A model generated the notes under the pieces. It saw only the letters and a list, made by a program, of their open reading frames with translations, had not been told where the DNA came from and made no database searches. Shown here piece by piece: positions 9,929 to 48,863 of a stretch of DNA of 64,000 nucleotides. Numbering within the stretch: the stretch's first letter is position 1; every line of letters begins with the position of its first letter. Made by a program: the position numbers and the translations under genes. Origin of the DNA: Alphaproteobacteria bacterium (GTDB lineage: Bacteria; Pseudomonadota; Alphaproteobacteria; Thalassobaculales; Thalassobaculaceae); assembly GCA_022822665.1 (NCBI GenBank), contig JAJEAR010000012.1, positions 124,001 to 188,000 of the forward strand, read 5' to 3'.

Positions 9929-10895
9929 CGCTTCCGCCTCCGTTCTGGTGCAGGTGACAGGTGACATGGCCGCCCGGGACCGTCGTGTGCACCGGGATGC
10001 GACTGGAACAGTCGTCCATGACATCGGCACAGCGCGGATGGAAGGTGCATCCCGAGGGAAGTTCAAGCGGATTGGGATAGGACGCCCCGAGGTGGGTGTC
10101 CGGCACGCCGAGCCCGGGATCCGGGGTCAGCACCGAGGCGAGCAGGGCGCGGGTGTAGGGGTGACGCGGCGCGGAGAACAGCACCTCCGCCGCGTTCTGC
10201 TCGACGATCCGGCCCAGGTACATCACTGCCGCCCGGGTGGCGATATGTTCGACGACCGCCAGGTTGTGACTGATCAGCAGGTAGGTCAGCCCGAGTTCGG
10301 CCCGGAGATCCTGCAACAGGTTCAGGATCTGCGACTGCACCGACACGTCGAGCGCCGAGGTGGGTTCGTCGCAGATGACCATCTTCGGCCGGTTGATCAG
10401 GGCGCGGGCGATCGCCACCCGCTGGCGCTGGCCGCCGGACAGCTGGTTCGGATAGGCGTTGAACAGCCGGCGCGGCAGTCCGACCAGCTCCATCATCTCC
10501 TCGGCCCGGCGTGTCCACCCTTCCGGTTCCGCCGCGCCCTGAACGCGCAGCGGCAGCGTGATGATGGAGCCGACCGTCTTGCGCGGATTGAGGGACGAGT
10601 AGGGGTCCTGGAATATCGGTTGGACCGCACGGGCGATGACCGACCGGTTCCAGCCGGCGATCGGCTTGCCGTCGAGCAGGATCTCGCCCTCGCTCGGCGA
10701 CAGCAGCCCCATCATCATCCGCGCGAGCGTGGTCTTGCCGCAGCCGGACTCGCCGACAAGCGCCATGACCTCGCCGGGTTCGATTGCAAGGTCGACGCCG
10801 TTGACGGCATGCAGCGGCCGTTTCGGACGCATGAACCCGCTGGAGATCATGAAGGTACGCCCGACGTCGCGCACCTCGATCACCGGGATGCTCAT
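9915..10895 (-). CDS. peptide ABC importer ATPase, DppF/OppF type
   Basis: The 326-residue ATPase has Walker A ([10 protein letters not shown]), signature L-S-G-G-Q-R-Q-R, Walker B with D-E-P-T-S-A-L-D, and the C-terminal oligopeptide-transporter extension with its cysteine-containing C-T-F-H-P-R-C segment, which in several relatives binds an Fe-S cluster. The start ATG overlaps the stop of the DppD-type gene as ATGA; an upstream in-frame ATG at 10925 lies inside that gene and is less likely. It powers the importer together with the preceding ATPase. Confidence 0.9.
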
Positions 10896-17450: not shown

Positions 17451-18113
17451 TCAGTCACGCAGCCTGCCTTCCGCATGGGCCCGGGCACAGACATAGTGCC
17501 AGTTGGTAAATGGCTTCCCGTATCGGCGAAGCGTGCAGCCGGGGGCCGCGTCACCGTGCGGCGTCTTGCCGGCATAGAAGATGGTCCGATCGCCCCGCGC
17601 GTTCGCGGTCAGCCTGCAGAACAACGGGATGTAGCTGCGACCACCGAAGAACGTGATCGGCTCTTCGACGTCGTCGGGCAGGGGGAAATCCTCAAAGGAA
17701 TCCCCGGGCTTTCTTTGCTTGTACCGTTCGGCATTGCTGAAGGTGATGTCGTAGCCGGGTGTCAGGAAGTCCGCGCGGATCAGCCCCCAACCGGCCGACA
17801 GGATGTAGAGGCGCTCGGTTCCGTAGTGACAGGCCAGCTTCTGGTATGCCGGGTTCTTGTAGAGTTTCCAGGCAGGCAGGAGTCCGAGAGGATTGGCGCC
17901 CGGCGCACTCTTATGCTTCTCGTTGTACTCCTGAAGCACGGTCCGCCAGGATTTCCCCGTGTCCGAAACATCATCCGGCCGGGCACGGAGTTCGCCCGTG
18001 CCGGCGGGTGCGGCATCCGGCTTCGCCACGAAGACGACGTTCCGGCCATCGCGCGTGCGCAGATGGCCCGCGTGGGGCTGTTTCCCCGATGCGCACTGAA
18101 TGACGATGATCAC
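17451..18113 (-). CDS. uncharacterised protein, YaaA/DUF6884-like
   Basis: The 220-residue protein begins I-I-V-I-Q-C-A-S-G-K after a GTG start that overlaps the stop of the upstream gene as GTGA. The early C-A-S-G-K and the later Y-I-L-S-A-G-W-G-L-I followed by P-G-Y-D-I-T-F-S resemble the first strand and the S-A-x-x-G-L segment of the YaaA/DUF6884-type fold. No catalytic role can be assigned. Tight coupling to a GIY-YIG nuclease-like gene suggests a two-protein cassette. The similarity is from motifs only and needs profile confirmation. Confidence 0.6.
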   Translation of the reverse strand: MIIVIQCASGKQPHAGHLRTRDGRNVVFVAKPDAAPAGTGELRARPDDVSDTGKSWRTVLQEYNEKHKSAPGANPLGLLPAWKLYKNPAYQKLACHYGTERLYILSAGWGLIRADFLTPGYDITFSNAERYKQRKPGDSFEDFPLPDDVEEPITFFGGRSYIPLFCRLTANARGDRTIFYAGKTPHGDAAPGCTLRRYGKPFTNWHYVCARAHAEGRLRD

Positions 18114-18820
18114 CCGGCGCTCTCCGCCTGATCGACCAGGTCCGCCAGCATGTCGATGAAGGCGGGATCGTAGTCTTCCTCGACATGGTTCGAGTTCCAC
18201 AGCCCGGATTTCCGAACCTTTTCCCGATCGCTATGGGACCCAAGCCAGGTGCTGGAAGGAGGGTCGATGACCTCCCTGCCTCGGTTGCTGAGCAGGGCAA
18301 TCGAGTTTCGCTCGATGAACCCGCGCCGACTGCCCGGGCCCGCGTCATCTCCGATCGCAAGCCAGAGAAACGGCATCGCGCCGATCTCCTCGCTCACGGC
18401 CCGTTCAAGCTCCAGTTCGCGCGCCCGGACCTCGCGTGGTACTCCGCCGCGGCTGCTGCCCCAGGTCGGGCACTCGAGCCCGTCCCTTCTGATCAGCGCC
18501 GCACCCACGATGAGCCGGAAGATCGAGCCCCGGTGATTGCCTCCGCCGGATCTGACGGTTCCCTTGTGCTGTTTCAGGCGTCGCCAGAGCGTGGTGCGGG
18601 AACCGGCCTTCAGGGCATGGGTGCCGACGCGCACGATGCGCGGACCGGTCCCGCTTTCGGTGCGGACCTCACCGGGTTCGTGGAAGAAGTACATACCTCG
18701 CATCGGCCAGGACATGCCGCCGGAACACTCGCACAACCGGCGCGCGCCCCCCGACTTCTCCTCAAGCGCACTCAACAGGTCGTGGAACCGGCGAAGGTGT
18801 TCCAGTCGCGACGATGCCAT
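18110..18820 (-). CDS. GIY-YIG nuclease-like protein
   Basis: The 236-residue protein has the ordered marks of a GIY-YIG nuclease: G-M-Y at 42-44 in place of GIY, R-V-G at 64-66 in place of YIG, T-T-L-W-R-R-L-K-Q-H with Arg80/81 and His85, and a late F-I-E-R-N with Glu170 in the place of the metal-binding glutamate. The G-N-H-R-G-S-I-F-R stretch at 94-102 is distinctive. The gene is coupled to the YaaA/DUF6884-like gene by a four-base overlap. The 447 bases upstream hold no recognisable gene. DNA cleavage in defence or a selfish role are possibilities; neither is shown. Confidence 0.65.
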   Translation of the reverse strand: MASSRLEHLRRFHDLLSALEEKSGGARRLCECSGGMSWPMRGMYFFHEPGEVRTESGTGPRIVRVGTHALKAGSRTTLWRRLKQHKGTVRSGGGNHRGSIFRLIVGAALIRRDGLECPTWGSSRGGVPREVRARELELERAVSEEIGAMPFLWLAIGDDAGPGSRRGFIERNSIALLSNRGREVIDPPSSTWLGSHSDREKVRKSGLWNSNHVEEDYDPAFIDMLADLVDQAESAG

Positions 18821-19267
18821 CAGGTCAACTCAACGTGGTTTCGCCGCAGCCTGTCCCGAACCGTACAGGCCATGCGGCCTGATCGGAGCTCGCTTCGTGC
18901 GACTGTATACATGGAACGATACATGGAACGGCGGTCGGGCGATTCTGCAGCGTGGCGAAGGCCGCGGCCATCGTTCACCACGGCCATGACCCGCACCTCC
19001 TGGCATGCGTCCGGGATGGCCATGGCTGACTGCTGCCGACTCTCACGGGAGTATCCAACGATACTCGCTCGAGGTAGTCGCCACCCGCTGAGCGCAGTGG
19101 AATTTTGAGCGACTCAGGGAACCATTCCGCCTCCCGGACTTTCGGGCGACCGGAGGCTTCAGTCGGCATCGGGACGACATTCTGAGCCGGCTCTTCCGTT
19201 CCCCCGGTTCATTCGGGCTGGATCAGCCCTCCGCCCATCAGAAGCTCTGCAGATGCTCAACACTTGC
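18821..19267. other. intergenic stretch without a recognised gene
   Basis: No convincing coding region is visible on either strand; the short frames present have no family features. A perfect 12-base unit, ATACATGGAACG, occurs twice in tandem at 18907-18930. The promoter of the GIY-YIG cassette presumably lies here. Nothing else was identified. Confidence 0.5.
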
Positions 19268-20251
19268 TCACTGCGACGGTCTCAGCAGGCGGATCGCGCG
19301 ATCCGGGTAGTCGGTGATCAGACCGTCAACCCCGAGCTTCGCCAGTGCCGCCATGTCATCGACATCGTTCACGGTCCAGACCACGACCTCGAGGCCCAGG
19401 CTGTGCGCCTCGGCGAGGGTTTCGGCGGTTAGGTCACGGAAATACGGAGACCACACCGCGCATCCGGCCTGCTCTACCAGTCGCGGAACGGAACCGCCGA
19501 CGGCATCGATGTCGAGACCGGCGGTCCAGGGCGACGGCCCGGGCCGCCCGCGCTGGATATTGTCGTGCCACGAGCGCTCGACAGTCAGGCAGGCTGTCCG
19601 GATTTCCGGCGCCCGCGCCTGCACCTCCCGGATGATGCGCCAGTCGAAGGACTGGATGGTGGCCCGGCCGGTCATCCCCTCGGCCTCCAGGACCTCGACA
19701 CTCGCCTGCGCAAGCCCGGACGGATCCGCCGTGGCATCGGGTTCCAGGGGCGAGATCTTGATTTCGATATTGAAGCGCAGCGCCTCCGCACCCGGGCTGC
19801 GCCCCAGGGCCAGGACTTCGGACAACATCGGAATACGGGCACCGTCACGGGGCTCCTGTTCCGGAAACAGGTCGGCGATCCTGCTGCCGGGCCGGATCCG
19901 ACCGACATCGAACGCCGACACCGCGCGATACTGCACGTGCCACAGCAGCAGTTCCGGCCCGCTCAGCCAGTTGCCGTCGGCATCGCGGGCGATGTCGGGG
20001 TTCAGTGCCCGGTCATGGTGCACCACGAGGACGCCGTCCCGGGTCATGCCGAGGTCGAGTTCCAGCTGATCGACGCCGAGTGCAACGGCACGCTCGAATG
20101 CCGGCAGCGTGTTTTCGGGCAGCAGCCCGCGCGCACCGCGGTGGCCCTGGATTTCCATGGCCTGGACCATCATCGGCGGCGCAATGCACAGCAACAGGAT
20201 GCACGCATGTCGGATCCCCGCGCAGAGTCGATCAGACAAGCCGGTTTCCAT
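19268..20251 (-). CDS. exported glycerophosphodiester phosphodiesterase
   Basis: The 327-residue protein has a signal peptide (hydrophobic 16-31) and the GDPD TIM-barrel motifs: G-H-R-G with His37 and Arg38, E-N-T-L-P-A-F, E64 and D66 in E-L-D-L, His79 in V-V-H-H-D, and I-E-I-K. Such enzymes release glycerol-3-phosphate from glycerophosphodiesters. It overlaps the Ugp ATPase gene by 20 bases and is the last gene of the operon. The signal peptide implies periplasmic cleavage ahead of uptake by the Ugp importer, unlike the cytoplasmic UgpQ of Escherichia coli. Confidence 0.9.
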   Translation of the reverse strand: METGLSDRLCAGIRHACILLLCIAPPMMVQAMEIQGHRGARGLLPENTLPAFERAVALGVDQLELDLGMTRDGVLVVHHDRALNPDIARDADGNWLSGPELLLWHVQYRAVSAFDVGRIRPGSRIADLFPEQEPRDGARIPMLSEVLALGRSPGAEALRFNIEIKISPLEPDATADPSGLAQASVEVLEAEGMTGRATIQSFDWRIIREVQARAPEIRTACLTVERSWHDNIQRGRPGPSPWTAGLDIDAVGGSVPRLVEQAGCAVWSPYFRDLTAETLAEAHSLGLEVVVWTVNDVDDMAALAKLGVDGLITDYPDRAIRLLRPSQ

Positions 20252-46395: not shown

Positions 46396-46458
46396 GCATG
46401 ATACAACGCATTTAATCACTTGATTTGTAAAAATATCGCAATTTTTACGTTATCATGC
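46396..46458. promoter_or_regulatory. nested inverted repeats upstream of the ATPase gene
   Basis: Two perfect eight-base inverted repeats are nested. The outer pair is GCATGATA (46396-46403) with TATCATGC (46451-46458); the inner pair is GTAAAAAT (46427-46434) with ATTTTTAC (46441-46448) around a six-base centre. The region is far AT-richer than its surroundings and ends 30 bases before the ATPase start. It could be an operator, a promoter or a structured leader. Confidence 0.5.
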
Positions 46459-46488
46459 ATTTACCATTGTCGTATGGAACCCGGACGG

Positions 46489-47631
46489 ATGCTGCTCCGC
46501 TTCAGTGTCGAGAACCATCTCTCCTATCGCGAGCGGAAGGACCTCGTCCTCGAGGCCTCGTCGCTCAAGGATACCGAAGAGGGACTGATCGCCTGCGATG
46601 CCGCCTACGGCGGTGCGGTCGTACCGGCGGTACTGGTCTACGGCGCCAACGGGTCCGGCAAGACCGGCCTGATTGGCGCGGCGTCGGTCATGAAGGACCT
46701 GGTGATGCAGTCCCGGGCGAGAACGGTCGACGGCGCGCACCCCTCGCCGGGCCCGTTCCTGCTGGACGCGGCCTGGTCCGGCAAACCGTCCGGCTTCGAA
46801 ATCGACCTGGTGATCGGCGCCATCCGCTATCACTACGGCCTTGAGGTCAGGAACGGAACGATCGCATCGGAGTGGCTGTACGAGTTCCCGAAGGCACACG
46901 GCCGCAAGCTGTTCGAGCGCGACGGCCAGGTCTTCGAGTTCGGGCGCTGGCTGAAGGGACAGAACCGGGCCTTGTCCAGGCTGACCCGCCCGGACAGCCC
47001 GTTCCTGTCGACCGCCGCCCATGCCGGTCACGACCAGCTCTCGCGGGTGCAGCGGTATTTTGGAAACATGGCCTTCATCGGTCCGGCGGCGGACCCGGAG
47101 GTCCCCGCTCGCCTGGCCGCGGACGAGCCGGACGCCCGGGTCATCGAATTCCTGAAATCCGTCGATGCCGGGATCGTCGGGTACCGCAGCAGGGACACCG
47201 GCGGGATCGAGCTTGCCCACCGTGGCAGGGGCGGGAAGGCCGTGTATCTCGACATGGACCGGGAGAGTTCCGGCGCCCGCCGCCTGCTGGTCATCCTGGA
47301 GCGCGTGTTCAGGGCCCTGGACGGCGGACATCCCGTCTTCATCGACGGGCTCGATGCGGGTCTGCATCCCCATGCCGGAGAGGCTGTCCTGCGTCTGTTC
47401 TGCTGCCCGCGGTCGAACCGCAACGGCGCGCAGCTCGTTGCGACGACCCACGACACCCACCTGATGAAATCGCCGGTGCTCCGTCGCGACCAGGTGTGGT
47501 TTACGGAAAAGAACCCCGACGGCGCCACGGACCTCTATCCCCTCACGGTCCTGCGGACACGCAAGGGGGACAACCTCGAGCTGGGATACCTGCAGGGACG
47601 GTACGGAGCGATCCCGCGCGGCGCATCCTGA
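46489..47631 (+). CDS. AAA-type/ABC-like ATPase of the phage-defence-associated kind
   Basis: The 380-residue protein begins M-L-L-R-F-S-V-E-N-H-L-S, the usual start of AAA_15/AAA_21 OLD-like ATPases, and has Walker A G-A-N-G-S-G-K-T near 52-59. Late motifs are S-S-G-A-R-R-L, F-I-D-G-L-D-A-G-L-H-P and A-T-T-H-D-T-H-L-M. In the Walker B position the usual D-E reads D-G, which may lower hydrolysis. Relatives occur in abortive infection and retron systems. No reverse transcriptase or nuclease gene follows directly; a transposase remnant and a toxin-antitoxin pair do. The start could also be 46474. Confidence 0.78.
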   Translation: MLLRFSVENHLSYRERKDLVLEASSLKDTEEGLIACDAAYGGAVVPAVLVYGANGSGKTGLIGAASVMKDLVMQSRARTVDGAHPSPGPFLLDAAWSGKPSGFEIDLVIGAIRYHYGLEVRNGTIASEWLYEFPKAHGRKLFERDGQVFEFGRWLKGQNRALSRLTRPDSPFLSTAAHAGHDQLSRVQRYFGNMAFIGPAADPEVPARLAADEPDARVIEFLKSVDAGIVGYRSRDTGGIELAHRGRGGKAVYLDMDRESSGARRLLVILERVFRALDGGHPVFIDGLDAGLHPHAGEAVLRLFCCPRSNRNGAQLVATTHDTHLMKSPVLRRDQVWFTEKNPDGATDLYPLTVLRTRKGDNLELGYLQGRYGAIPRGAS

Positions 47632-48178: not shown

Positions 48179-48496
48179 TCAGGCCACAGCTCCGAGCCCG
48201 TTCTTCGCCACCAGTGTCAGCAGCTTCAGTGACGTGCCTCGGGGGCGCTTCTCGCCACGCTCCCACTGGCTCACCAGGCCCGTCGTCACGTTGAGGTAGC
48301 GTGCGAATACCGCCTGGCTCGCACGCTCGCGCAACCGCAGTTCCCGGATCGCCTCCGGCGTCATCTCCTCGACCGGCGTGAGGCACATCTCGTCAAACTT
48401 GCGCATGGTCCGCTTCGACATGACGCCCGCCTCCGCCAGACCGAGCGCCGCCTCGTGCGCCGCCGCCAGCGCTTCACTCCTGTATTGCTTGGTCAT
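48179..48496 (-). CDS. HigA-like XRE-family antitoxin
   Basis: The 105-residue protein has a helix-turn-helix near 55-90 (S-Q-A-V-F-A-R-Y-L-N-V-T-T-G-L-V-S-Q-W-E-R-G). The stretch K-F-D-E-M-C-L-T-P-V-E-E-M just before it is typical of antitoxins paired with PF06296 RelE toxins. It follows and overlaps the toxin gene by 23 bases, the higBA order. It likely neutralises the toxin and represses the operon. Confidence 0.83.
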   Translation of the reverse strand: MTKQYRSEALAAAHEAALGLAEAGVMSKRTMRKFDEMCLTPVEEMTPEAIRELRLRERASQAVFARYLNVTTGLVSQWERGEKRPRGTSLKLLTLVAKNGLGAVA

Positions 48497-48863
48497 CGCA
48501 TGTCACCTCGATAATCGCTCCCGTGGCCTGCGCCGCTTCGATGCTTGCCGCATCCAGCGACAGATACTCGTCGGCCAGCACCCGGTAGGTTATCAGTTCG
48601 TCTCGTCGCAGGTTTTCCCGGTCGCTCTTGGCGAACCCGTAAACGAAGAACGCCAGCGCCCCCCGGTGGAACAGCACGATTGTACGGAACCCGCCGGAAC
48701 GGCCGCCACCCTTGCGGGCGATGCGCTGCTTGATGACGCCACCGCCAAGGTCGGCGTCGATCAACCCCTTTCCGGCACGCCGAACCGCTTCGCACAGCGC
48801 CGCATCCTCCAACTCCTCGCGGTCGGCGAACCGGGCGAACGCCTTGGTCTTGAACGTTTGCAA
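48474..48863 (-). CDS. RelE/HigB-type toxin (PF06296-like)
   Basis: The 129-residue protein starts from TTG with GAGG nearby. It has the RelE-type pattern K-A-F-A-R-F-A near 7-13, G-L-I-D-A-D-L-G-G-G-V-I-K-Q-R-I-A-R and G-R-S-G-G-F-R-T-I-V-L-F in the middle, and F-V-Y-G-F-A-K-S-D-R-E-N. Such toxins are ribosome-dependent mRNA interferases or relatives. It overlaps the HigA-like antitoxin gene. Both genes are intact, so the module may be active. Confidence 0.82.
   Translation of the reverse strand: MQTFKTKAFARFADREELEDAALCEAVRRAGKGLIDADLGGGVIKQRIARKGGGRSGGFRTIVLFHRGALAFFVYGFAKSDRENLRRDELITYRVLADEYLSLDAASIEAAQATGAIIEVTCDDQAIQE

Follow-up and report, generated by a model that had tools for sequence, protein, structure and literature searches.

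Two overlapping minus-strand genes in a 64,000-nucleotide stretch of DNA (the window) encode a predicted GIY-YIG-type nuclease (B) and a protein of the YaaA/DUF6884 superfamily (A). Judged by their sequences and those of their relatives, they stand about an even chance of being a two-component, methyltransferase-free restriction module that would act against phages or other incoming DNA. The module is already catalogued in PADLOC as the candidate system PDC-M57, where it is listed, not demonstrated; the PDCs have been described as a guilt-by-embedding set, mostly unvalidated (PMC12988326). The initial annotation, made from the window alone, had held that neither protein has a known role. This stands insofar as no experimental report on PDC-M57 or on the pair was found in the literature searched, but the combination of B with a DUF6884-type partner already has its entry in PADLOC.

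Gene B occupies positions 18110 to 18820 of the window (minus strand; 236 amino acids, ATG start), and gene A lies directly downstream at 17451 to 18113 on the same strand (220 amino acids, GTG start). The stop of B and the start of A share a GTGA at 18110 to 18113 (minus strand), and this overlap, read from the sequence, suggests translational coupling of the two genes. The automatic listing of open reading frames places A at 17451 to 18200 by using an earlier GTG; the GTG within the overlap was taken as the start because relatives use it, with the exact 4-nucleotide overlap present in 48 of the 60 A-type loci among the best 80 of 315 B relatives. The next gene upstream of B is gdpD-like and has its stop at 19268. 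The 447 bases between them (18821 to 19267, minus strand) are presumed to bear the promoter and contain only a 67-amino-acid mechanical open reading frame and no convincing gene; a search of this region for a sigma70-like promoter gave no match. The description of 17451 to 18820 as a GTGA-coupled two-gene cassette that sits alone behind a gene-free region is thus confirmed. The window copy is flanked by metabolic genes. The GC content and third-position GC content of A and B equal those of the neighboring genes, and a recent foreign origin of the pair, as judged by GC, was rejected, since the composition is that of the host.

B matches the PADLOC model PDC-M57B (PDLC04714) over its full length (residues 5 to 233 of 236) with an E value of 1.2e-85. 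The ordered motifs of GIY-YIG nucleases, GxY, (Y)xG, Arg, His/Tyr, and Glu, are all present, as GMY (residues 42 to 44), RVG (64 to 66), R81, H85, and E170, placed by translation and an alignment of 70 relatives. The AlphaFold2 model of B (pLDDT 93.7) presents a strand (GMY), a strand (RVG), a helix (R81 and H85), inserted helices, a strand, and a helix (E170), so that the predicted order of secondary structure is as in GIY-YIG nucleases.

Direct scans with Pfam, NCBIfam, and PHROGs gave no name for B, and no Pfam GIY-YIG model matches it directly. The bridge to the GIY_YIG_2 family is a DUF7662-DUF6884-GIY_YIG_2 fusion protein from a Rhodococcus plasmid, which scores 51.5 bits against Pfam GIY_YIG_2 (cut-off 22.4) and resembles B across the TLWxR...GGxH..S.FR...G region. 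A GIY_YIG_2 profile was made from 11 members. Their sources were Rhodococcus plasmids and viral contigs, because the family was not found in 200 genomes of the phylum nor in the control genomes. Compared with this profile by hhalign, B reached 75 to 82% probability (E values of 1e-5 to 2.5e-5) with every motif in register. A profile comparison with Eco29kI relatives aligned the motifs with a nonsignificant score. In the PDB, the sole nuclease match by Foldseek was R.Eco29KI (3mx4), at a nonsignificant E value of 3.9 and a TM score of 0.26 to 0.29, and searching the PDB by phmmer and by profile returned nothing meaningful. As Foldseek found no significant PDB match for B, the claim of a GIY-YIG fold stands on profiles and motifs; by these computational means B is shown to belong to the GIY-YIG nucleases, and nuclease activity is predicted for it. 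The nuclease-like fold first guessed for B is in this way supported by the GIY_YIG_2 profile comparison.

A carries CASGK at residues 7 to 11 and LSAGWG at residues 105 to 110, placed by translation and alignment. They are instances of the CxxxK and LSAxxG motifs, proposed by the authors of the Pfam family to be part of an active site (PMC11701544). C7, K11, L105-S106-A107, and G110 are invariant in 49 A sequences, and G42, Y44, R64, G66, R81, H85, and E170 of B do not vary in any of the 70 aligned B sequences, which argues that these residues are not there by chance. The initial annotation had singled out the motif residues of B and, in A, CASGK and SAGWGL.

The Pfam DUF6884 model matches A with 22.6 bits (E value of 1.3e-4). 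Because this lies under the gathering threshold of 30, A is not counted as a DUF6884 member and is classed, on sequence, as a relative within the DUF6884/YaaA superfamily, with a longer inserted region than DUF6884 and its own NWHY motif at the C terminus. The PDC-M57A model (PDLC04712) matches A weakly over 55 residues (E value of 1.5e-4; 20.2 bits, where typical members score about 120 to 146), and DpdC models match its core weakly (E value of 5e-6 or weaker). Comparison with bona fide DUF6884 domains by hhalign gave 94% with an E value of 1e-7. The AlphaFold2 model of A has a pLDDT of 95.9. With this model, the top five Foldseek matches in BFVD, all viral proteins, have probabilities of 0.96 to 1.00 and include proteins named YaaA (1.00) and DUF6884 (0.99); the PDB yielded no significant match, only sirtuin-like noise. 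Membership of A in the YaaA/DUF6884 superfamily is thus shown computationally, and Pfam, hhalign, and the BFVD comparison bear out the first guess at its nature. A direct tblastn search of viral contigs with A retrieved no relative, whereas relatives of B there numbered 11, one of which carries an A-type gene as detected by profile. Neither A nor B was found in annotated phages.

Across the 84,980 species genomes scanned, B had 315 relatives, and the best 80 loci were examined. These come from Pseudomonadota, Acidobacteriota, Chloroflexota, Nitrospinota, Deinococcota, Spirochaetota, Kiritimatiellota, and others. A lies directly downstream of B in 61 of these 80 loci, DUF6884 is directly upstream of B or fused to it in 7, and a winged-helix YaaA protein follows B in 3, a 61:7:3 ratio that is biased to the window's own type, since the 80 loci are those closest to the window B. 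A YaaA-superfamily gene is therefore present within 600 bp of B in 71 of the 80 loci, and such genes are nearly absent from the remaining flanks; no partner was detected within 600 bp in the other 9. The case against the pairing, that the two families do not co-occur elsewhere, failed in this survey. The distances of A and B co-vary (r of 0.62, 0 of 2000 permutations). Fusions occur in both orders, as GIY-YIG-A at locus L051 and as DUF6884-GIY-YIG at loci L065, L067, and L080, and the linkage of A and B by operon overlap and natural fusion is shown computationally from these sequences. In the tree of B, which is poorly resolved, the partner type changes several or many times. Weak DpdC profile matches extend to other partners of B relatives.

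Related arrangements are found around other GIY-YIG genes, two of them being independent associations with DUF6884. On Rhodococcus plasmid pLW3, the DUF7662-DUF6884-GIY_YIG_2 triple fusion (L134:5680-7005) adjoins a type I restriction-modification locus. In Deinococcus peraridilitoris, a DUF6884 gene is followed by a different GIY-YIG gene, for which the Pfam GIY-YIG match is subthreshold (E value of 0.014). On Rhodococcus aetherivorans plasmid pN2 (L138:3269-4513), an annotated uracil-DNA glycosylase directly precedes a GIY_YIG_2 nuclease, possibly a parallel pair of base excision and nuclease. Going by the last two pairings, the association of a GIY-YIG nuclease with a glycosylase-like or base-flipping protein has come about more than once. 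Roseomonas plasmids (L136 and L137) carry a homologue of A, 48% identical, with no detectable B; this gene is convergent with an HNH endonuclease gene and has IS elements or a RecB-like nuclease in its vicinity.

Several loci among the relatives have further features. By eye, the N-terminal region that precedes DUF6884 in L065:1382-3190 and L085:4698-6005 resembles a helix-hairpin-helix DNA glycosylase, and in L065 this region, DUF6884, and the GIY-YIG domain make up a single polypeptide; a Pfam scan of the L065 N terminus gave no confirming model. In the operon at L084:5953-8730, an HNH protein with matches to type IV restriction models is encoded after B and before a winged-helix YaaA gene. 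The N-terminal domain of the HNH protein recurs, again by eye, in the DUF6884 proteins at L079 and L085. Three diverged B-A copies (L058, L066, and L071) lie on one contig of the MAG PRO23, with B 82 to 89% identical among them and the same ArdC-like gene following each.

The distribution of B is sparse. Within the order, 2 of 36 genomes carry it, one of these with a remnant; within the phylum, the count is 2 of 398. B also occurs on Deinococcus and haloarchaeal plasmids. The commonest neighbor family in the best 80 of the 315 loci is ArdC antirestriction-like (9 loci), and ParB-like and relaxase-like families come next, all named from inspection of the sequences. On three annotated Haloarcula plasmids B adjoins an ArdC-like gene, and on Haloarcula plasmids an HNH endonuclease gene overlaps B convergently; on haloarchaeal plasmids (L006 to L010), DUF6884 genes lie about 2 to 7 kb from B and are not adjacent to it. 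In a sister species, the same gdpD locus retains only an N-terminal remnant of B in two frames, that is, frameshifted, with A missing and a tnpB gene adjoining (L091, G001:C115:24000-40000, at about 10450 to 10706; L003). This sparse, plasmid-linked pattern, with decay in the sister species, fits horizontal transfer and a dispensable mobile function.

Defense genes occur near the relatives of B. The neighbors in the best 80 of the 315 loci include matches to AbiE, restriction-modification, Druantia, DISARM, and MADS models and occasional methyltransferase matches. As 49 control genes of the 64-kb window gave PADLOC matches at a similar order of frequency, this context is suggestive, and enrichment is not claimed. 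No obvious defense island was seen around the window copy within the 64 kb. Overall, the first interpretation of the pair is partly supported. An AbiLi/AriA-like ATPase gene (46420 to 47631; PADLOC AbiLi E value of 3e-78) lies about 28 kb from the cassette, and on the strand opposite to it is an apparent RelE/HigB-type toxin-antitoxin pair (48179 to 48863). Among the 49 window genes scanned, no methyltransferase family and no Dpd family, DpdA and DpdB included, was reported.

The lack of a partner methyltransferase among the scanned window genes favors a logic like that of type IV restriction, in which the target would be something normally lacking from host DNA. In the proposed mechanism, A would scan DNA and accommodate a flipped base in its CxxxK/LSAxxG pocket, the base probably being one that is modified or looks damaged. 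A may only recognize the flipped base, or it may excise it and leave an abasic site; B would then cut the strand at or near this place through its Tyr/Arg/His/Glu site. Both the flipping or excision by A and the cutting by B are inferred. Restriction directed at modifications or lesions in general has roughly equal odds for and against it, whereas true base excision followed by cleavage is a tentative proposal. The same caution applies to its explicit two-step form, a doubtful but specific one in which the YaaA-fold A would remove a modified phage base and the GIY-YIG protein B would be a dedicated abasic-site nuclease. In that form, the nuclease would stay constant, and the specificity would come from YaaA-superfamily partners that can be exchanged for one another. 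To our knowledge, neither members of YaaA nor the YaaA fold have so far been established as DNA glycosylases.

Precedents for the separate steps have been described. B. subtilis YfjM was recovered among proteins that interact with abasic and ribonucleotide lesions, and a base is flipped in an AlphaFold3 model (PMC11701544); DpdC, of the same superfamily, hydrolyzes a modified base in DNA (PMC12839542, PMC11888242). The glycosylases Brig1 and Brig3 act in defense by creating abasic sites, showing that base excision by itself can be antiviral (PMC11078745, PMC13160076), and AP endonucleases enhance restriction of the R.PabI type (PMC10273834). The parallels of Brig and DpdC to the pair are of function or superfamily, not of close homology. 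A possible defense role would agree with the sparse occurrence on mobile DNA and with the logic of the partners; against the restriction reading are the metabolic-gene setting of the window copy, the 9 of 80 partnerless B loci, and the Roseomonas A without a B match.

Other functions would account for part of these observations. In a host DNA-repair module, A would sense abasic or oxidized bases and B would nick at the lesion in the manner of UvrC, so that repair of the cell's own DNA begins. The place of YfjM among the lesion interactors and the part of E. coli YaaA in the oxidative stress response (PMC11701544) are in line with this, as is the occurrence of the GIY-YIG domain in UvrC, itself present in 16 of the 16 genomes of the family searched. 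However, a presence in only 2 of 36 genomes of the order, decayed copy included, and 2 of 398 of the phylum is unlike a core repair pathway, as are the plasmid carriage, the mobile-element neighbors, and the decay beside tnpB in the sister species, and a repair function is considered unlikely. The mobile setting would instead suit a cassette for the maintenance of mobile elements or for conflict among them, by addiction or competition between plasmids and not by phage defense proper, with A restraining or targeting B. The pair is plasmid-borne, ArdC-like, relaxase-like, and ParB-like genes lie near several loci, and the order of nuclease and then partner with an overlap resembles some toxin-antitoxin pairs. 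Yet the pocket of A is invariant and putatively of enzyme type, and three YaaA-type partners and fusions suit substrate delivery better than an antitoxin, which makes this reading improbable.

A Dpd-like modification system, with A hydrolyzing or editing a modified DNA base as DpdC does and B restricting unmodified DNA, draws on the weak DpdC matches to A (E value of 5e-6) and to other partners and on DpdC, a protein of this superfamily, being a hydrolase of a base in DNA (PMC12839542). This reading is quite improbable, given that the scan of window genes reported neither a Dpd nor a methyltransferase family and that the direct fusion of A to the nuclease in L051 leaves no separate modification arm. 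Methyltransferase-free restriction, the preferred reading, would have wider consequences. A constant nuclease that is operon-linked or fused to three different YaaA-type partners offers direct access to the action on DNA of the widespread YaaA/DUF6884 superfamily. If the pair restricts modified phage DNA, a methyltransferase-free class would be added to the known forms of restriction, and an unvalidated entry of a defense database would be explained.

Among known systems, the pair is most directly comparable to PDC-M57, with which it shares a full-length PDC-M57B protein and an adjoining YaaA/DUF6884-type gene. The PDC-M57A component is of the compact DUF6884 type and is located upstream or fused, whereas A of the window is longer, divergent, and downstream. 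As the PDC-M57A model fits the DUF6884 partners (about 3e-43 for L063 and L067) and not the window A, the window pair represents a variant form of this candidate system. A has the same CxxxK and LSAxxG motifs and the same predicted fold as the DUF6884 (PF21818) and YaaA (PF03883) proteins, including YfjM, and belongs to the same superfamily as DpdC of the Dpd 7-deazaguanine DNA-modification system, with weak matches over the core; unlike DpdC, it is paired with a nuclease. B has the GxY, VG, RxxxH, and Glu motifs in the same order as GIY_YIG_2 (PF20815) and R.Eco29KI but differs from GIY-YIG enzymes in having an arginine (RVG) in place of the YIG tyrosine, and from R.Eco29KI and classical restriction-modification in having no partner methyltransferase among the window genes scanned. 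Should A excise a base, the pair would be like Brig1 (uracil-DNA-glycosylase fold), Brig3, and PabI (HALFPIPE fold) by functional analogy alone, sequence relation not being among the grounds for this comparison.
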